The position numbers were made by a program, and so were the translations under genes. From Couchioplanes caeruleus (GTDB taxonomy: Bacteria; Actinomycetota; Actinomycetes; Mycobacteriales; Micromonosporaceae), in assembly GCF_003751945.1 (NCBI RefSeq), contig NZ_RJKL01000001.1, positions 8,202,501 to 8,266,500 on the forward strand: DNA of 64,000 nt. The letters are read 5' to 3'. The notes beneath the pieces were generated by a model. It saw only the letters and a program-made list of their open reading frames with translations, searched no databases and was not told the origin of the DNA. Shown piece after piece: positions 53,980 through 62,941 of this stretch; positions within the stretch are counted from its first letter, which is position 1, and the number at the start of each line of letters is the position of its first letter.

Positions 53980-55341
53980 GCCGCACCCGGCTGGCAGTGG
54001 TCACTGGCGCTGGCCGAGGGCTGGGAGCCGCATCCCCTGATATCGAAGTTCGTTGTAGTGGTCGTGACAGATGAGGTCTTGGGGTCCGGTGTCCTGTCGG
54101 GGTTCCGGGATGAGTTGTACCGCTGCTTGACCGCCGGGGCGGATGCGTTGTTCGAGCTGACCGACGCGGTGTTGTGCGCGGACGGACCGGTCAAGTCGTT
54201 GGTCGATCTGACGTTGACGGCCGAGCACCGGCGCGGACACGGGCGCCTTGTATGACGCGCTCAACCAGGGCCGAATCGATCTGAGGCGGCTGCTGCGGGC
54301 GTTGACGACGCTGCCTCTACCGCGCTTCGCCGACGGCCGGATCGTCCTCGCGGTCGACGTGTCACCGTGGCTGCGCTCCGACGCCGCGTGCAGCCCGGAC
54401 CGGCTGTTCTGCCACGTGTACGGGCGCGCCAAGAGCGCCGCGCAGTTCATCCCCGGCTGGCCATACTCGTTCGTGGTGGCTCTGGAACCCGGGCGCACCT
54501 CGTGGACAGCGATGCCGGACGTGCTACGTCTCGGCCCCGCCGACGACGCCACGGCGGTCACCGCGAGCCAGTTACGCGACGTGATCGACCGGCTGATCGC
54601 CTGCGGCCAGCAGCAAACCGGCGACCCGCACATCCTGATCGTCTGCGATGCCGGCCACGACGTGACCCGCCTGGCCTGGGTCCTGCGCGATCTGCCGGTC
54701 GAGGTGACCGGGCGCATCCGCGCCGACCGGGTCCTGCGGGTACCGGCCCCGCCGTACGAGTACCACCCGTACGGCGGTCGCCCGCCGAAACACGGCGGCG
54801 AGTTCGACCTGAAGGACCCCGGCTCCTGGCCCGAGCCAGCCGTGACGACAGTCAACGAGACGGCCAGCTACGGAAAAGCCGACACCAGAGCCTGGAACCG
54901 GCTTCACCCGAGATTGACCCACCGCGCCGCCTGGCTCGATCACGAGGGCAAGCTCCCAGTCGTCGAGGGCACCCTGATCCGGCTTCAAGTCGAGTACCTG
55001 CCCGGTGACCGCGACGCGCAACCGTTGTGGCTGTGGTGGTCCGGCACCGGCGCCGATCCACCGGATGTGGACCGGATCTGGCAGGCATACCTACGACGCT
55101 TCGATCTGGAGCACACGTTCCGCCTGTTCAAGCAGACCCTCGGCTGGACCAGGCCGAAGCTACGCAACCCGCGGGCAGCCGACCGCTGGACCTGGATCAT
55201 GATCGCCGCCCACACCCAACTACGGCTCGCCCGGCCCCTTGCCATCGATCTACGCCGCCCATGGGAACAACCGTCACCGCCCGACCGGCTCACCCCGGCC
55301 CGGGTCCGGCGCGGGTTTCGGAGCCTCCGCCCGACATCGGC

Positions 55342-55378
55342 GAGGCTGTCGCACAACGTTCGATCTTGGGCTGTCAAG
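55342..55378 (+). repeat. Left terminal inverted repeat of the IS1182-like element
   Basis: The 37-bp end reads GAGGCTGTCGCACAACGTTC and continues GATCTTGGGCTGTCAAG. It pairs with the right end except for one base (G here, A in the reverse complement of the right end). Confidence 0.88.
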
Positions 55379-55409
55379 GCGTGTCGGAGCAGGGCCTTCA
55401 TGGCCATAG

Positions 55410-56966
55410 ATGGTCGACTATGGGGTGAGGTTCAACTTCATCTCTTGCGATCGTGAGCGCGTTCTCTCGCTCCCGCCCGATGTCCGGCAGTGGTTACCAC
55501 CGCAGCACCTGTGCGGGAAGGTGCTCGCGGCGGTGCAGAAACTGGATTTGTCGGCGTTCCTGGCCGGATACCGTGCCGATGGACAGGGCCACGCAGCGTA
55601 TCCACCGGATGTGGTGCTGTCGTTGGTGTTGTACTGCTACAGCAAGGGCATCCGTTCGTCACGGCGGATTGAGGCTGCCTGCCTCGACGATGTGGGCTGC
55701 CGGATCATCGCGGCCAACCAGCAAATCGACCATGCCACGATCGCGCGGTTTCTGCGTCGGCATCGCCACCGCCTGGAGTCGCTGTTTCTTCAGGTGCTGG
55801 CGTTGTGCGGCCGGCGAGGAATGGTGGACCTGTCCGCGGTCGCGGTGGACGGCTCGCCGATGCACGCCAACGCTGCCCGCTCGTCGAACCGCACGCTGCA
55901 GCAGTTGGAAGCCGTTGTCGCTGACGGCGAGGCGCGTATCGCCCGATCAATGACGGGCCTGGCGCCGGATACGACGACGGCGTCGGCCCAGCCCGCAGGC
56001 TTGCGGCGAGTAGGTCGCAACGAACTGTCGTGGGGACCATTGGCACGCCTCGGTGACCGGATCGCACGGGCCCGCACAGCTCGGGACAACTTGTATGAGC
56101 GGGCGTTGCCGTCGTCGGGCGAGATCCAGCTCAAGGTCGAGGCCGCCGAACGCATGGTGGCCCGAGCCGAGCAACGGCTGGCCGCGGTCACCGCCGCTCA
56201 CACGACAACGCTGCAGGCCTACGCCCGTCGGACACGGCAGGACCAGGCCGTAGGACGCCAACGCGCCAACGGGCGCCCACCGGTGGCGTTGCACGCCAAA
56301 GCCTCAGTGCTACGCCAGCGGGAACGGCTCGCCAGGGCACAAGCAGGGCTGCAGAACATCCGCAATCCCCACCCGACGCCTTCGCCGAGGACCCGCGCCT
56401 CGCTCACCGATCCCCAGTCACGGCTCATGCTCGGTAAACGCGGCGGCTACGTGCAGGGCTACAACGTGCAGATCGCCTCCACCCGCAACCAACTGCTGCT
56501 CACCATCGAATTGCAGGACAACCCCTCGGACATGACCGCCTTGGTCCCGGTCGTGAAACGAACCCAGCACAACTGCGCCGCCGCAGGCATAGACGGCCAG
56601 GTGGCAGCATGGTTAGCCGACAGCGGGTACGCCAGCGCCGCCAACTTCGCAGCACTAAACGATCTTCCGCTGTTTGTATCGGTCACCCAGGAATACCGCC
56701 AGACACACAGCCCGCACCCACCGCAGCCCGCCAGCGTCCCTGCCGGTCAGCGCGACATGGCCGCCCGCCTGGCCACCCCCGCCGGCCGCGAGCTCTACGC
56801 CCGCCGCAGCGCCCTGGTCGAGCCCGGCTTCGCGCAACTCTTCCAACGCTTCGGACGCCATCTGCACTACCGCGGCGCGACCAGCGTCGACGCCGAGATC
56901 AAGCTGCTCGGCGCCGTGCACAACCTGAACAAGCTCTTCCGCCACGACGCGAAACGTCCGTCTTGA
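55410..56966 (+). CDS. IS1182-family transposase
   Basis: This 518-residue transposase has the IS1182 N-terminal block RVLSLPPDVRQWLPPQHLCG, KLDLSAFLAGYRADGQGHAA and YPPDVVLSLVLYCYSKGIRS SRRIEAACLDDVG, and a central region AVAVDGSPMHANAARSSNRT with a catalytic Asp candidate. Later are KRGGYVQGYNVQIASTRNQ, WLADSGYASAANFAAL and GRELYARRSALVEPGFAQLF, with the final Glu candidate. The frame is intact and ends inside the right inverted repeat. It contains a TTA codon (AWLADSG). Likely functional. Confidence 0.92.
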   Translation: MVDYGVRFNFISCDRERVLSLPPDVRQWLPPQHLCGKVLAAVQKLDLSAFLAGYRADGQGHAAYPPDVVLSLVLYCYSKGIRSSRRIEAACLDDVGCRIIAANQQIDHATIARFLRRHRHRLESLFLQVLALCGRRGMVDLSAVAVDGSPMHANAARSSNRTLQQLEAVVADGEARIARSMTGLAPDTTTASAQPAGLRRVGRNELSWGPLARLGDRIARARTARDNLYERALPSSGEIQLKVEAAERMVARAEQRLAAVTAAHTTTLQAYARRTRQDQAVGRQRANGRPPVALHAKASVLRQRERLARAQAGLQNIRNPHPTPSPRTRASLTDPQSRLMLGKRGGYVQGYNVQIASTRNQLLLTIELQDNPSDMTALVPVVKRTQHNCAAAGIDGQVAAWLADSGYASAANFAALNDLPLFVSVTQEYRQTHSPHPPQPASVPAGQRDMAARLATPAGRELYARRSALVEPGFAQLFQRFGRHLHYRGATSVDAEIKLLGAVHNLNKLFRHDAKRPS

Positions 56967-57849: not shown

Positions 57850-58236
57850 GCTTCACCATCGGTCAACCCCGGCCGGACATGAGAACACGGCTGTGCCGCG
57901 CGCCCTCATTGATCTGCCCGGCCCGTCATGCCACGTCCGATGCCTATCGACAGTCGTTGTCGCGGTCATGGCGGACCAGGCGGATGCGATCGATGTGCTG
58001 GCGGCATTCCGGGAACAGTTCTAGGGGTGCCGGTAACGAACGTGTCACCAGCCGGCAAATAGTTGATCTTGGCGAGTTGGCGGATAACAAACAACCCGCG
58101 AGTTCCCTGCAGTAGCACGGTCCCCGGCGACGTCCTGGCCAGGGGCTTTCTCTCTCAGGTCCCTCGATCGAGCAAGCCGACGTAACTTCAGGATTCCTGA
58201 GCCGTTGTCGTTATCAGCGCCGGTATTCCGACTCTG
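57850..58236. other. Gene-free stretch with a transposase N-terminal fragment
   Basis: No intact gene is supported. On the plus strand, 57968-58024 reads MADQADAIDVLAAFREQF and a stop. This resembles the first residues of NF041680-type transposases (compare VLSGFRDELY in the copy starting at 54058), so it is probably a leftover of a related element. GATCTTGG (58065-58072) has an inverted copy at 61380-61387 flanking the recombinase trio. The rest holds nothing recognisable. Confidence 0.4.
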
Positions 58237-59340
58237 GTGAAGGCGAGGTGGCTCGGGTTGGCCCTGGCGGTGGTGCGGGACCTGCGTCAGGCACGGCGAC
58301 CCGCGACAGCCGACGAGATCGCGGCTTTCGAGACCGACGTGCTGGCCGGGTTCGTGCTGGCCCGGTCCGCGGCCGGGCTGTCCGACGACACGATCCGCGG
58401 CGATGTCGGCCATCTCGACCAGGTGCGTACCTGGTTCGGTCGTCCGCTGTGGGAGATGGAACCGGCCGACGCCGATGCCTACTTCGGCAAGGTGCTACGT
58501 GACGCGGCGAAGGGCACGCGGCTCGGGCGGGCGCAGGCGCTCAGAACGTACTTCCTGTTCCTGGAGCTGCGGCACAAGGTCGAGATTCACGAGCTGACCG
58601 GCCGGGTGGTCGAGTGCCCGATCGACGAGATGAACCGGCCCCGCGGTGCCGGCAAGGCCAGGCTGCGGATCCCGCCGTCGGCCGAGCAGGTCGAGCAGCT
58701 GCTGTTCGCCGGGTGGCGGGCCGAGCTGGCCACCTGCCGTAAGTTCGCGCCGACCGCGCGGAACTACACCGCGGCGCGGCTGATGGCCGAGGTCGGGCTG
58801 CGGGTCAACGAGCTGCGCAGCCTCGATCTGGCCGACGTGAAGTGGGACCTGGGTCGGTTCGGCAAGCTGCACGTGCGCAAGGGCAAAGGTGCCCGGGGCT
58901 CCGGCCCGCGGGAACGGATGGTCCCGCTGATCAACAACGCCGGAGCGACGCTGCGCTGGTTCATCGAGGACGTGTGGGGCCACTTCGACGACGACCACAC
59001 CCGGCCCGGCGCCCCACTGTTTCCCTCCGAACGCCGGTGCGCTGACGGCAGCGCCGCCCGCGTCGGTGACGACGCGGTGCGCACCTCGCTCGCCGTGGCC
59101 GCGCGCATCCACCTACCGGAGTGGCCCGAGGCGCTGACGCCTCACGTGTTGCGGCACTACTGCGCCAGCCAGCTGTATGCCGGCGGGATGGACCTGATCG
59201 CGATCCAGGAGGTCCTCGGACATGCCTGGATCGCCACCACCTTGCATTACGTCCATGTCCACCGCACCCATGTGGAGGACGCCTGGGTGGCCGGGCAGCA
59301 ACGGGCGGCCGAACGGCTGAAGGGACTGGTGACGCCGTGA
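58237..59340 (+). CDS. Tyrosine-type site-specific recombinase/integrase
   Basis: This 367-residue recombinase has an N-terminal SAM-like DNA-binding domain (GLSDDTIRGDVGHLDQVRTW) and the catalytic domain with the first Arg in AEVGLRVNELRSLDLAD, the Lys-containing hairpin VRKGKGARGSGPRERMVPL, HxxR in LTPHVLRHYCASQLY, His in EVLGHAWIATTLHYVHVH, and Tyr in LHYVH. The set R-K-HxxR-H-Y is complete. GTG start. The stop overlaps the GTG of the HTH gene by 4 bp, so it belongs to a coupled three-gene cassette. Confidence 0.92.
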   Translation: MKARWLGLALAVVRDLRQARRPATADEIAAFETDVLAGFVLARSAAGLSDDTIRGDVGHLDQVRTWFGRPLWEMEPADADAYFGKVLRDAAKGTRLGRAQALRTYFLFLELRHKVEIHELTGRVVECPIDEMNRPRGAGKARLRIPPSAEQVEQLLFAGWRAELATCRKFAPTARNYTAARLMAEVGLRVNELRSLDLADVKWDLGRFGKLHVRKGKGARGSGPRERMVPLINNAGATLRWFIEDVWGHFDDDHTRPGAPLFPSERRCADGSAARVGDDAVRTSLAVAARIHLPEWPEALTPHVLRHYCASQLYAGGMDLIAIQEVLGHAWIATTLHYVHVHRTHVEDAWVAGQQRAAERLKGLVTP

Positions 59341-59660
59341 AATGGAACCTGCGGCTGGCAGCCGCTCAACGCGGCATATGGAAGGCCAGCGAACTGCAGC
59401 GCATGCTCGCCGAACGAGGCCTGAGCATCTCCGCCGGGAAGATGTCCGGACTGTGGTCCGGGCAGCCGGCCAGCATCAAGCTCGACGACCTCGACGTAAT
59501 CTGCGCCGTCCTCGGTTGCGGCGTGGCCGATGTGCTTATCCCGGAGCCGGACAAGGTCACCCGGCCCGTGGTGGAGCAGGCAACGCAGCAGGCCGCGGTC
59601 GGGGCCACGATCGTGGTGGCGCCGCGGCGCCGGGACGGACGCTCACTGCCACCGGCATGA
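59337..59660 (+). CDS. Small Cro/C1-type helix-turn-helix protein
   Basis: This 107-residue DNA-binding protein has an XRE/Cro-like HTH (WKASELQRMLAERGLSISAG, KMSGLWSG, LDDLDVICAVLGCGVADVLI) in the first 75 residues and a basic tail. It is coupled on both sides (GTGA overlap with the recombinase, ATGA overlap with the CxxC protein). By position it could be a directionality or control factor of the cassette; no direct evidence. Confidence 0.82.
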   Translation: MKWNLRLAAAQRGIWKASELQRMLAERGLSISAGKMSGLWSGQPASIKLDDLDVICAVLGCGVADVLIPEPDKVTRPVVEQATQQAAVGATIVVAPRRRDGRSLPPA

Positions 59661-61321
59661 GCCCGGCCGGGCGCCGGACCGCCGACATGATCGGGCCGCG
59701 GGGCTGCATCGACTGCCTGGCCTGGGGTCGGCTCGGTGGCCGGCGGTGCATCGCCTGCTCGGTCTTCCGCCACGACAACCCCGACCGGGACCGATGCGCC
59801 GGCTGCGATCGCGTCCTGGCGATCAAGAACGGCTACTGCCGGATGTGCTGGCATCAGGCTGTCCTTGACGGCAACGCCGCTGGTCGCCGCCGCGGCACCG
59901 ACGCCGCCTACCTGCACGGCCAGCTCGAGTTGGCGCCGATCCGCCACCACCAGCTGTTCTTCGACCGAATGAAGTACCGGCGGGCCAGCGGCCCGGTCCA
60001 CACCCGCGACCGACGGGGCCGGCCCCGCAAGACGGCACCACCACCGGCCGGGCCGCCGCACGTCGCGTGGATCCAGCCACCGCTGTTCACCATCGGCCGG
60101 GACTACACCCGCATCATCGACAGCACGGCCTACCCCGCCGGCCCGCCGGGACCGTGGTTGGCCTGGGCCCGACATCTGGCCCGCCTCCGCAGCGAGGCCC
60201 GCGGTTGGCACCCGGCTCTGCTCACCGGCGTCGATCGGATTCTGACCATCCTGCTGTCCGACCACATCCCCGGCGACACGATCACGATCACCCAGATCCA
60301 TACGCTCTGCAAGCGGCTCGGCGTCGGCGCCGAACGCGTCTGCGAGGTCCTCTCCGACATGGACCTGCTCGTCGACGACAGGCAGCCCGGCTTCGACGTC
60401 TGGCTCCAGCGTAAGCTCACCGGCCTCACCCCGGGCATCCGCAGCGCCGTCGAGGCCTGGCTGCGCACCCTGCACGACGGCGGCCCCCGCAGCCGCGCCC
60501 GCCACCCGGCCACCGTCTGGAACTACCTCAACAAGGCACTGCCCAGCCTGCACGCATGGTCGAACCGGTACGCACACCTGCGCGAGGTCACCCGTGACGA
60601 CATCATCGCCGAACTCGACGCACGGAACGGGGTGCAGCGGGAGAACCTGCTGGTCGCGCTGCGGTCGCTGTTCCGCCACTGCACCAAGACCCGGACGATC
60701 TTCCGCAACGCGACCATCCGGATCAAGGTCGGCCAACGCGTCTACGGCGTTTTCCAGCCGCTGCATCCCGACGACGTCGACCAGGCCGTCACCGCCGCGA
60801 CCACCCCCGCGGCCCGGCTCGTGCTCGCCCTGGCCGCAGTGCACGCCGCACGCACCAGCCAGATCCGCGTCCTCCGCCTCGACGACGTCGACCTCGGCAA
60901 CCGGCGCATCATCATCGCCGGCCGGATCCGGCCTATGGACGACCTCACCCACCAACTCCTGCGCCAATGGCTGGAACAGCGGCAGCACCGCTGGCCAGCC
61001 ACCACCAACCCCTACCTGCTGATCAACCAGCAGACCGCGACCGAGACCGGCCCAGTCAGCACCTTCTGGACCAAAAAAGCGCTACGCGGCCACGCCGCAA
61101 CCCTGGAGGGCCTGCGCCGCGACCGGCAACTCGAAGAAGCCCTCACCCACGGCGGCGACCCGCTGCATCTGGCCGCGGTCTTCGGCATCGACGCCAAGAC
61201 CGCAATCCGCTACGCCACCACCGCCCGCCGACTCCTGGAATCCGCCGCCGAGCACCACGACACCGGTGGTTCACCACGAACCCAAGGGCGGAAACCATCC
61301 AATAGGCCTGAAAACCCTTAG
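59657..61321 (+). CDS. Four-CxxC zinc-ribbon protein with degenerate tyrosine-recombinase-like C-terminus
   Basis: This 554-residue protein has four CxxC pairs in its first 64 residues (C17/20, C31/34, C47/50, C61/64), probably two zinc ribbons. A basic linker, then a helical region from about 170 (ALLTGVDRILTILLSDHIPG) and a C-terminal domain resembling a tyrosine recombinase follow: LALAAVHAARTSQIRVLRLD DVDL with a possible first Arg, HLAAVFGIDAKTAIRYATTA with a possible Tyr. A standard HxxR box is not seen (the place reads LEGLRRDRQ), so catalytic activity is doubtful. It may be a partner subunit of the recombinase encoded upstream. I do not know a characterised member. Confidence 0.7.
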   Translation: MSPAGRRTADMIGPRGCIDCLAWGRLGGRRCIACSVFRHDNPDRDRCAGCDRVLAIKNGYCRMCWHQAVLDGNAAGRRRGTDAAYLHGQLELAPIRHHQLFFDRMKYRRASGPVHTRDRRGRPRKTAPPPAGPPHVAWIQPPLFTIGRDYTRIIDSTAYPAGPPGPWLAWARHLARLRSEARGWHPALLTGVDRILTILLSDHIPGDTITITQIHTLCKRLGVGAERVCEVLSDMDLLVDDRQPGFDVWLQRKLTGLTPGIRSAVEAWLRTLHDGGPRSRARHPATVWNYLNKALPSLHAWSNRYAHLREVTRDDIIAELDARNGVQRENLLVALRSLFRHCTKTRTIFRNATIRIKVGQRVYGVFQPLHPDDVDQAVTAATTPAARLVLALAAVHAARTSQIRVLRLDDVDLGNRRIIIAGRIRPMDDLTHQLLRQWLEQRQHRWPATTNPYLLINQQTATETGPVSTFWTKKALRGHAATLEGLRRDRQLEEALTHGGDPLHLAAVFGIDAKTAIRYATTARRLLESAAEHHDTGGSPRTQGRKPSNRPENP

Positions 61322-61462
61322 ATCCTGCTGAAGAAAGTTCAATCTGGCTGAACCCAACGGGCTGGCACCTCACGCTAGACCAAGATCGATTCCGTGCGCT
61401 CAGACTCAGCCCACCCCTCTCGTCGACGGGACGACCCGCGGCCTGGTATTCAAGACGCCGTG

Positions 61463-62116
61463 ATGGACCGGGAACTGCTCGACAAAATCGATGCCACGCC
61501 GTGGATCGCCGACCTGCTCACCCTTTTCGACTTCGAGGTCGCCCGGGCCGCCGACGGACCGATCGAGCCGGTAACCCTGCCCGGCGGCCAGCCTCTGGAG
61601 ACGATCGCCGGCGACGGCACCGGCGGATCCTTTCTGCTTGTCGGTGCGGGTGCCGTGCGGCCGGTGCTCTACGTCGGCTCGGAGGGCGAGGGCGGCCTGG
61701 TCGCCACGAATCTGCGGGACGCACTGGCCCTCGTCGTCGGCGTCTCCAGCCTGCACGACGCCACCACGTTCTCCGTCGACGAGGACGACGGCAGGGCCCT
61801 GCGCGACTTTCTCGCCCGCACCGACGACGAGATCCGCGAGGACCGGCCGGAGCTCGACGACGACCGTGATCGCCTGCGCGAGGCTCTCGGACTGCCACCG
61901 GTCGATGACGTACTCCTGCGGTCGTTGCAGGCCGCGGCCGCGGACATCACCTACCGGCCGATCAACGAGCAAGGCGACCGGTTCCGGCCGATGCTGGCTT
62001 GGCTGGAAGACGCCGAGGAAGCGGAGCGCCCGGTGGTCCTGGCGTCTCTAAGTCCTCCTGCGCCCCCGGCGGTTCGCCCGGATGAGCCGATGCCGGGGCA
62101 GCTTGGCTTGTTCTGA
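61463..62116 (+). CDS. SUKH-like hypothetical protein
   Basis: This 217-residue soluble protein has a mixed alpha/beta start LLDKIDATPWIADLLTLFDF, GGQPLETIAGDGTGGSFLLV, VRPVLYVGSEGEGGLVATNL RDALALVVG. This pattern is like the SUKH/SMI1-KNR4 superfamily, many members of which are immunity proteins of toxin systems. No toxin gene is visible next to it. The C-terminal part has an acidic helical segment (REDRPELDDDRDRLREAL). The ATG at 61463 follows GCCGTG; a GTG start three bases earlier is possible. Confidence 0.5.
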   Translation: MDRELLDKIDATPWIADLLTLFDFEVARAADGPIEPVTLPGGQPLETIAGDGTGGSFLLVGAGAVRPVLYVGSEGEGGLVATNLRDALALVVGVSSLHDATTFSVDEDDGRALRDFLARTDDEIREDRPELDDDRDRLREALGLPPVDDVLLRSLQAAAADITYRPINEQGDRFRPMLAWLEDAEEAERPVVLASLSPPAPPAVRPDEPMPGQLGLF

Positions 62117-62188
62117 CCCAGCCAGGCCCGCGGTCACGCCTCCCCGAAACCAGTGCCAAGTCGTTGAGCGCTATGACAACGTCGGTGA

Positions 62189-62653
62189 ATGATCAACGCT
62201 GAGGGCCTGGTCGGCAGACGCCTGCTGAAGGTGACGACATCCTGGCACCACTACCAGGAGACCAAGCCCTCTCTCCTGCACATGTGGCTGCACCTGGACG
62301 GCCTCGGCCCCGTCCGGTTCCACACGCCGAACGACGGATTGTCTATGGAGATCGACCAGCCTCACGGCCCTTACGACATGGACGAATACGGCCACACCAC
62401 AGTCGAGGACGATCCGCCGGACTTCCCCATGACCCGGTTCGTCAGCCAACGGATTCTCTCCACCCGGGAGATCCGCTACCGCGGCGAGAACCTCGACTTC
62501 GCCATCGGCATCACACTGCAGTTCACGAGCGGAAGCATCCGCGTCCTCAACCTCGCGGACGAAATCGTCCTGGCCTACGACCAGCACTTGGGTCCGGTCG
62601 AGACCCATCTTCATGAGGCAATGACACCCGCACACCCGGACGCCTCACTGTGA
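62189..62653 (+). CDS. Hypothetical protein
   Basis: This 154-residue soluble protein has no family I recognise. It contains TTSWHHYQETKPSLLHMWLH LDGLGPVRF, EIDQPHGPYDMDEYGHTTVE and RYRGENLDFAIGITLQFTSG, suggesting a beta-rich fold. It lies between the SUKH-like gene and the ArsR/SulP pair. It could be cargo of the neighbouring mobile cassette. Confidence 0.6.
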   Translation: MINAEGLVGRRLLKVTTSWHHYQETKPSLLHMWLHLDGLGPVRFHTPNDGLSMEIDQPHGPYDMDEYGHTTVEDDPPDFPMTRFVSQRILSTREIRYRGENLDFAIGITLQFTSGSIRVLNLADEIVLAYDQHLGPVETHLHEAMTPAHPDASL

Positions 62654-62941
62654 GTTAGAGACGAACCCACGGATCGATCCCACCAAGCACGTCATTCGAT
62701 CCTCGGGTTCCCGCTGAAGTCCCTTCAGTTTCCCCGAACCCACGGAGGTCCAGGGCCGCCGGTAGCTTCCAGCGCAAAAACAACGCTAATCAGTTGATGT
62801 AGGGCTCCTGCCCCCGCTGGGCTCCTGGTCGGCATGTGTCATCGGCTGCCATGAGAGTCGCCACATCCAAGACTTGAAGACTTTTGCAACTGATAAAGTC
62901 GACATCTGGCCTGGTGGCGGGCGTGATGGGGTGGTGATGGC
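62654..62941. promoter_or_regulatory. Intergenic region with operator-like repeat before arsR-type gene
   Basis: GACTTT (62879-62884) and AAAGTC (62895-62900) are perfect 6-bp arms around TGCAACTGAT in an AT-rich stretch 40 bp before the ArsR start, a likely binding site. Upstream, CTGAAG-TCC-CTTCAG forms a small hairpin, and GAACCCACGGA occurs twice. Nothing else is seen in this 288-bp stretch. Confidence 0.45.

Follow-up and report, generated by a model that had tools for sequence, protein, structure and literature searches.

The systems closest to the one considered here are the Tn554-like elements, the SEs, the RIT elements, and the GInts. In the available text of Van Houdt et al. (2012, PMC3414803), actinobacterial Tn554-like elements encode a long recombinase of 611 to 828 amino acids with a potential catalytic motif, and TnpC stands third in many of them; RIT elements are described there as three adjacent, overlapping recombinase genes. 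The SEs, as presented in the accessible part of Idola et al. (2023, PMC10214605), are found in Gammaproteobacteria and carry the gene set intA-tfp-intB-srap, with two catalytic recombinases, Srap, and a recombinase-fold protein without RHRY (Tfp). For the GInts, the accessible part of Bardaji et al. (2017, PMC5385486) gives ginABCD with three integrases, a cargo of 2.5 kb or more, and imperfect direct repeats on either side, and GinC is stated to be without the catalytic tyrosine (PMC10214605, accessible part). Here, we analyzed a stretch of 64,000 nucleotides from Couchioplanes caeruleus (contig NZ_RJKL01000001.1), referred to below as the window, and in particular a cassette of three coupled genes, A, B, and C, near its right-hand end. 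We judge the element in the window to belong to a widespread family of tyrosine-recombinase transposons that have one catalytic subunit, a helix-turn-helix (HTH) partner, and a degenerate CxxC-rich partner. We put the probability at roughly 0.8 that the element is an autonomous transposon of this type, with B and C as partners of A, and that it targets the ends of Tn3-family transposons in the clade formed by the window copy and its Streptomyces relatives. The cassette and the two parts of C that matter for this reading are as follows, in window coordinates.

58237..59340, + strand: gene A, tyrosine recombinase, 367 amino acids, GTG start (PF00589 and catalytic alignment)
59337..59660, + strand: gene B, HTH_26 (Cro/C1-type) protein, 107 amino acids, GTG start (PF13443)
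59657..61321, + strand: gene C, CxxC-rich pseudo-recombinase, 554 amino acids, ATG start (Pfam and phrog matches, alignments)
59705..59848, + strand: C residues 17-64, two CxxC-x10-CxxC units (sequence and alignment)
60761..61213, + strand: C residues 369-519, degenerate catalytic domain with R399, ExxR487, FGI for LGH, and Y519 (motif alignment by hand)

Both junctions are 4-bp overlaps (GTGA between A and B, ATGA between B and C), as a preliminary description of this locus had stated. Its identification of the first gene as a complete tyrosine recombinase also held: A matched PF00589 (E 2.2e-21, Pfam), and all six catalytic residues are present (R189, K217, H303, R306, H329, and Y338), each conserved in more than 99% of a 119-row alignment. 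From this intact set, A is predicted to perform catalysis. B matched PF13443 (HTH_26; E 3.2e-11, Pfam), and in two proteins (P0160 and P0209) the Pfam domains of A and B are fused in one chain. PADLOC returned no match for A, B, C, or the two extra genes described below.

The same description had placed four CxxC pairs in the third gene together with a possible catalytic Arg and Tyr but no HxxR box, and both points were borne out. The Cys pairs lie at 17/20, 31/34, 47/50, and 61/64; C61/C64 is conserved in 142/142 rows, and C47/C50 in 128 of the 129 rows that have a letter there. Profile matches indicate that the second half of C resembles the core-binding and catalytic domains of integrases. 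The profile check proposed for the 554-residue protein was divided in its outcome, with a clear match of the second half to the phrog_1 integrase (E 8.2e-14) and a weak one to PF00589 (E 1.9e-4, 21.7 bits), under the curated cutoff of 27.1. Among 79 homologues of C, 27 matched PF00589 and 10 matched PF02899 (E up to 0.01), and the best solved relative by sequence was the Gp33 chain 5vfz (E 4.5e-4). By hand alignment, R399, R487, and Y519 are retained, the HxxR motif of recombinases is replaced by E484-x-x-R487, and LGH by FG[L/I]. In 119 close rows, R399 is kept in 118, R487 and Y519 in all 119, and position 484 is E in 114 and D in 5, so that the motif reads ExxR or DxxR and never HxxR; L, I, M, or V stands in place of the His of LGH. 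Of the 21 further loci that have a letter at position 519, 18 retain the Tyr, and the others have W (G024), F (G023), or S in a decayed copy. The W is carried by both C-bearing copies in G024, which are 100% identical and lie at two sites; a lineage that moved therefore lacks the equivalent of Tyr519. Because both histidines are gone and one mobile lineage is without the tyrosine, we consider C, whose fold appears to be a degenerate, recombinase-like one, to be probably a noncatalytic partner and not a nucleophile. At one locus (L070 in G023, 7248-5719, minus strand), a C-like protein that has kept its CxxC pairs and has Phe for the C-terminal Tyr stands alone, with no A or B match within the 13-kb stretch; this protein is possibly domesticated.

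The cassette recurs widely. A tblastn search with C matched 105 of 72,556 plasmid records, 82 of them from Streptomyces, and 24 genomes in a set of 150 from relatives (own genome included); an alignment search matched 30 of 296 genomes sampled across the phylum (again with the own genome), many of these matches being weak and partial and perhaps to generic recombinases. In a protein search in which 8,000 candidates were scored for each query, at least 1,059 relatives of C and at least 1,951 of A were found. Relatives occur on plasmids and chromosomes in many actinobacterial genera; C was not found in phage records, nor in viral contigs, where the scan was limited by its peptide patterns. Soil bacteria are hosts of this small mobile element. 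In 16 annotated plasmid copies, selected from the 105 plasmid records, an HTH gene is annotated ahead of C in all 16 and an integrase in 14; L060 and L083 have A-like DNA with no annotated gene, and in L061, C is incomplete. This conserved order argues that the cassette is not a chance arrangement. A survey of gene order had been proposed, with a third gene occurring alone at fixed positions as the outcome that would speak against a cassette, and this was not the rule: of 20 places with a single match of at least 400 residues of C in the 150 genomes, 19 were examined, of which 17 have B upstream and 16 have A (G023 and G035 have neither in the stretch read). Distances for A and C are correlated (r = 0.887 for 19 loci, with 0/2000 permutations as high; 3 of 22 loci were dropped as A or C was too short), and co-inheritance of the two genes is thus supported at the sequence level. 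The window genome itself contains the intact copy, a divergent A-B-C set at 7.06 Mb, B with a broken C at 4.59 Mb (no A within 12 kb), and a mere fragment at 0.26 Mb; no element end was found among the repeats near this fragment, at 255.9 kb.

The suggestion that the cassette is part of a self-mobilizing element is well supported for the family. Nocardia farcinica IFM 10152 has a shared 3,357-bp unit at different places on pNF1 and pNF2 (99.85% identical), Streptomyces NBC_00984 has copies on two plasmids (99.6% identical), a single NBC_01201 plasmid carries two copies in inverted orientation (99.97% identical), and G024 has two chromosomal copies at two sites (100% identical over 3,284 bp). 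The pNF1 insertion is absent from three Nocardia plasmids and the pNF2 insertion from one, S. zaomyceticus NBC_00278 provides the empty site for the NBC_00044 insertion, and in NBC_01213 the left flank of NBC_01201 copy a is joined directly to the right flank of copy b, from which it follows that the NBC_01201 copies have probably exchanged flanks. At all four empty sites (pNF1, pNF2, S. zaomyceticus, and NBC_01213), no base was gained or lost at the junction. A 1-bp target duplication, considered from the NBC_00984 pair, was rejected, since other junctions disagreed and the empty sites fit zero duplication. Comparison of these sequences establishes defined ends, precise insertion, and the use of multiple sites, and supports mobility and the target assignments given below. 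Where both ends were measured, the elements span 3.3 to 4.7 kb, apart from an internally deleted 2.9-kb copy in G026 (L068, 5844-8743; L129). This derivative keeps both ends, has a Tn3 repeat at its right edge, and encodes A residues 1-78 followed closely by C residues 404-545; it might move in trans. In NBC_01201 (L081), the two inverted copies flank a 28.4-kb segment with inverted-repeat ends, which could move or invert as a unit.

With the ends of relatives in hand, the window copy can be delimited as follows.

58085..62750, + strand: whole element, 4,666 bp, left spacer to right end (right end like the relatives' ends proven by empty sites; left arm common to relatives)
58085..58089, + strand: left 5-bp spacer TAACA, TGTGC in Streptomyces copies (left-end comparison)
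58090..58105, + strand: left terminal arm AACAACCCGCGAGTTC (pattern match)
61394..62116, + strand: extra gene 1, up to 240 amino acids, start uncertain, with an ATG at 61463 (no family match)
62189..62653, + strand: extra gene 2, 154 amino acids (no family match)
62736..62750, + strand: right terminal arm GAACCCACGGAGGTC (matching end placed by empty sites in S. zaomyceticus and NBC_01201/NBC_01213)
62751..62752, + strand: 2 bp of preexisting DNA between element and target repeat (left-flank homologues crossing the insertion point)
62753..62790, + strand: target, 38-bp terminal inverted repeat of a Tn3-family transposon (copies in the genus and the L125/L127 pairs)
58024..58061, + strand: terminal repeat of a second Tn3-family transposon, left of the element (L130 pairs)

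The arms are imperfect inverted repeats (left AACAACCCG or GACATCCCG..., right ...CCACGGAGGTC), and the window right end, ...CCCTTCAGTTTCCCCGAACCCACGGAGGTC, with its last base at 62750, resembles the Streptomyces ends placed by empty sites. The span of 58237-61321 first proposed as the unit therefore proved short, by 1,429 bp on the right, where the two extra genes and the right end lie, and by 152 bp on the left. A right end near 61365, where there is an inverted-repeat look-alike, was rejected, as a relative's right end matches 62652-62755 and homology to G043 runs from 62753. Extra gene 1 is missing from the P. ferrugineus copy (G036/L006); elsewhere, the cargo between C and the right end is a GNAT acetyltransferase, a HEAT-repeat protein, or a pRiA4b ORF-3-like protein. 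No Rfam family matched the window at the gathering threshold. The setting had been described as full of transposon debris, and the Tn3-family terminal repeats at 58024 and 62753 agree with this: the element sits where the end of one Tn3-family transposon had landed inside another. The far end of neither transposon was found in the stretches read. Further to the left, at 54248-56966, two long open frames resemble transposases by eye.

The nature of the target is clearest for the window copy. Its joined flanks were searched against 60 genomes of the genus, and rows starting within 15 bp of the junction were considered; here and below, except for NBC_00984 plasmid 1, the counts refer to listed rows that are without the element and start near the junction. 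Outside the own genome, 13 of 15 rows begin within 1 bp of position +3 (62753), and by eye they have unrelated DNA to their left. Two left-flank homologues (G006 and the own genome) match to query position 243, 3 bp past the insertion point at 240, and the other left-flank rows stop before that point. In L125 and L127, the 38-bp repeat occurs as inverted pairs around a frame of about 1,030 codons with a DDE_Tnp_Tn3 domain (E 5.9e-125 and 1.9e-126), and in L127 an exact 5-bp duplication surrounds the pair. The 58024-58061 repeat is likewise paired in L130, with a 5-bp duplication, GTTCT, and a Tn3 transposase. For the G026 target, the starts of 8 of 10 copies fall between +1 and +3, and L140 has paired repeats, the duplication GAAGC, and a Tn3 transposase (E 8e-119); for the target on NBC_00984 plasmid 2, 7 of the 10 near-junction rows among the matches listed fall within 1 bp of +3, and in L138 the repeats are paired 11 kb apart, with the duplication CTGGT and a Tn3 transposase (E 5e-135). 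On this evidence from sequence, these three targets, the window's included, are Tn3-family terminal repeats.

Six further targets were judged by start position alone, with 3 bp allowed unless stated otherwise. The starts agreed in 3/3 rows for S. virginiae and 10/12 for NBC_00842 and, among the matches listed, in 4/5 for NBC_01201 (within 1 bp), 12/15 for S. zaomyceticus, 15/19 for S. europaeiscabiei, and 14/39 for NBC_00984 plasmid 1. The S. zaomyceticus count leaves out two filled and three empty copies of the same plasmid type; 12 of its 15 matches end at query position 61, which gives a common stretch of about 38 bp. Beyond the matches listed lie 78 records for NBC_00984 plasmid 2 and NBC_01201, 19 for S. 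zaomyceticus, 2 for S. europaeiscabiei, and 1 for NBC_00984 plasmid 1. In NBC_01201, the two copies abut both outward ends of the 28.4-kb segment, whose ends form a 28/38-bp inverted repeat; a relative of this segment in NBC_01276 has a DUF4158 gene and a Tn3-family transposase close by, and no partner repeat was found there. In the clade of the window and Streptomyces, the right end usually lies 2 bp outside a repeated sequence.

Some tyrosine recombinases belong to Tn3-family transposons themselves, TnpI and TnpS/TnpT being resolution modules of this kind. The location of the cassette at Tn3 ends and its tyrosine recombinase would suit such a module, with no element of its own; however, the element lies outside the terminal repeat, paired Tn3 copies (L125, L127, L138, and L140) have no element at their ends, and in S. 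zaomyceticus and NBC_01213 the empty sites stand beside intact repeats, although these repeats are not proven Tn3 ends. As precise empty sites exist and other clades occupy non-Tn3 sites, we regard a Tn3 resolution module as highly improbable.

Several observations weigh against an autonomous, Tn3-end-targeting transposon with A, B, and C as partners. Neither a circle, nor excision, nor activity was observed. The comparison of empty with filled sites that had been proposed succeeded in relatives and gave no clean empty site for the window copy, since G043 has the right flank with a different left neighbor. A profile comparison of C with A was not significant, perhaps because the alignment of A is shallow. 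With respect to the target, exact 5-bp duplications are absent in L125 and L126; among the matches listed for NBC_00984 plasmid 2, 13 more rows start more than 70 bp further in; and of the 39 rows for plasmid 1, 8 also match the element right end, 5 begin a few bases too early, and 12 begin more internally. Neither of the two other copies of the P. ferrugineus (G036) target starts at the exact base, the starts being 4 and 7 bp early. A partner repeat downstream was found for only the two NBC_01201 copies among 15 insertions, and further search added none. Finally, the Nocardia and G024 copies are not at Tn3 repeats.

These last copies are informative in their own right. The two Nocardia targets share GTGAGCAAGATATCCCAAAACCCCGGGGTTTTGG from +3 and lie near genes for MobA/VirD2-type relaxases (PF03432), and the target sequence looks like an origin of transfer (oriT), its complement being, as we take it, akin to a MOBP nic site. 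Both insertions, in pNF1 (L012/L135) and in pNF2 (L011), lie within a conserved, palindrome-bearing sequence, perhaps oriT. The G024 copies (L062 and L063) are inserted at one and the same point in a pair of homologous reading frames; the encoded proteins share 56% identity over 270 residues and look to us like putative DNA methyltransferases. Target specificity, as read from these alignments, is real but clade dependent.

Two explanations of this specificity need to be weighed. Bases flanking the insertion show a weak CNNN|NNGG preference (G at +3 in 12/14 and at +4 in 11/14 on the right, C at -4 in 12/17 on the left; the right end of G044 was placed by motif only), and the Tn3 repeats here begin with GG. 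The target of a mobile element could therefore be picked through the core-site recognition of A, with a structural or regulatory role for C. We reason, however, that GG motifs must far outnumber transposon ends in GC-rich genomes, and yet the insertions are found at ends; we give this account a substantial minority chance. In the other explanation, these elements form a class of actinobacterial transposons that hunt the ends of mobile DNA, in which the CxxC-rich pseudo-recombinase would read the target and dock the single catalytic partner there in a fixed orientation; the target read would be Tn3 terminal repeats in one clade, oriT-like DNA linked to relaxase genes in the Nocardia copies, and a gene resembling those of methyltransferases in a further clade. 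For this wider proposal we consider the odds to be even. C as a DNA-targeting subunit, a possibility raised in the preliminary description, may be correct, but since A and C both change between the clades that use different targets, the data cannot separate the contributions of the two proteins.

The left spacer gives some indication of how the element may move. Immediately ahead of the left arm, 11/11 Streptomyces junctions with a recognized arm have the 5 bp TGTGC (12 copies were fetched, and NBC_00842, whose arm was not recognized, was left out). At this place the two Nocardia copies share AGTTA and the two G024 copies AGTAC; the window and G026 have different spacers, TAACA and CTACG, though their first 21 arm bases agree except for one. 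At the right end, the bases adjoining the arm are those of the empty site. As for hairpins, folding z scores below -2 were found beside the insertion point in 2/15 right flanks and 0/17 left flanks. A constant left spacer with target bases on the right is the trace expected of a circle that carries the left spacer and is inserted with a bias. We infer, for a transposon of the kind proposed above, that A would cut and rejoin DNA at core sites within the two imperfect inverted ends and that a circular intermediate carrying the left spacer would be inserted with a strand bias and without target duplication, in such a way that the A-proximal 5 bp stay with the element and the target bases stay at the other end. 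Target choice would be sequence specific, for Tn3-type terminal repeats in the window/Streptomyces clade and for other sites in other clades, and B, an HTH protein, and C, probably noncatalytic, would act as partners that build the synapse, with C probably reading the target.

Other mobile DNA is known to prefer the same kind of site. IS4321 and IS5075 (IS1111/IS110 family) target the terminal inverted repeats of Tn21-type (Tn3-family) transposons, and they use a DEDD recombinase with a bridge RNA and insert within the repeat. Here, in contrast, the enzyme is a tyrosine recombinase and insertion is 2 bp outside the repeat; no IS110-type Pfam match was obtained for A, B, or C at E values up to 1. 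With the gamma-mobile-trio models of NCBIfam, A remained far under the cutoffs (15.4 bits against 340 for GmtY and 11.5 against 600 for GmtZ), and B and C had no Gmt match at E values up to 1.

A further possibility is that the element is a divergent member of the Tn554-like, SE, RIT, or GInt groups, with nothing new in its mechanism. The general plan is the same, with a normal recombinase, a large recombinase-like protein, and a small protein, no duplication, and a spacer between inverted arms. Tn554 generates no target duplication, and none is seen at our four empty sites. The catalytic set of a large second recombinase such as TnpB, however, is incomplete in C, which has ExxR or DxxR in 119/119 rows, leaving only one recombinase with a full catalytic set. 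On one representative pair, homology to TnpA and TnpB was lacking as well: the match of A to a TnpA-like protein is confined to 51 residues around the catalytic motifs (E 8e-5), and C has no detectable similarity to one actinobacterial TnpB-like protein (L010; BLASTP E 0.34, profile probability 0.2%). That TnpB-like protein (L010, 14422-16683) has, by eye, three Cys/His knuckles in its first 170 residues, and a shared plan of zinc knuckles plus recombinase is therefore possible. NBC_00984 plasmid 1 and pNOCA01 bear, by layout and size, separate Tn554-like pairs; pNOCA01, which figures in the table of actinobacterial Tn554-like elements (PMC3414803, available text), has a short/long recombinase pair (419 and 805 amino acids) at 110-113 kb, taken to be the element of that table, apart from the relative found here at 24-28 kb. 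With the spacer polarity also opposite to that reported for SEs, we consider membership in one of these groups unlikely. We found no description of the A-B-C family in the open-license full-text literature, although subscription papers fell mostly outside this scope and one may be in print; the accessible part of Smyshlyaev et al. (PMC8138268) names no such group.

The family would explain a common actinobacterial trio that is annotated as integrase, regulator, and hypothetical protein, and it offers a natural insertion system with exact, duplication-free ends. Tn554, SEs, RIT, and GInts are its nearest systems, and each differs in at least one defining feature. As described in the available sources, Tn554-like elements are likewise small transposons with one normal and one large recombinase-like protein, but no HTH gene lies between the recombinases as in the A-B-C cassette (PMC3414803). 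SEs likewise have an operon of a recombinase with a recombinase-fold protein lacking RHRY, and a short spacer as a fingerprint between inverted arms with biased placement (PMC10214605, accessible part); however, their two catalytic recombinases and Srap contrast with one full recombinase, an HTH protein, and the degenerate C, and their spacer is 6 bp and lies at the intA-distal end of the circle, whereas ours is a constant 5 bp at the A-proximal end with target bases on the right. Compared by description, RIT elements differ in that B is an HTH protein and C is degenerate, and GInts, which likewise combine several recombinase-type genes with a small helix-loop-helix protein (PMC5385486, accessible part), differ in gene content and in the lack of duplication at our four empty sites. 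Tn554 is reported to use one site (PMC3414803) and SEs few sites (PMC10214605), as far as the accessible text of these reports goes, whereas a single rule, insertion at a transposon's outer edge, takes close relatives of the window element to many places, and in other clades the rules are different. With one rule per clade, the choice of target by a separate, probably noncatalytic subunit becomes directly testable.

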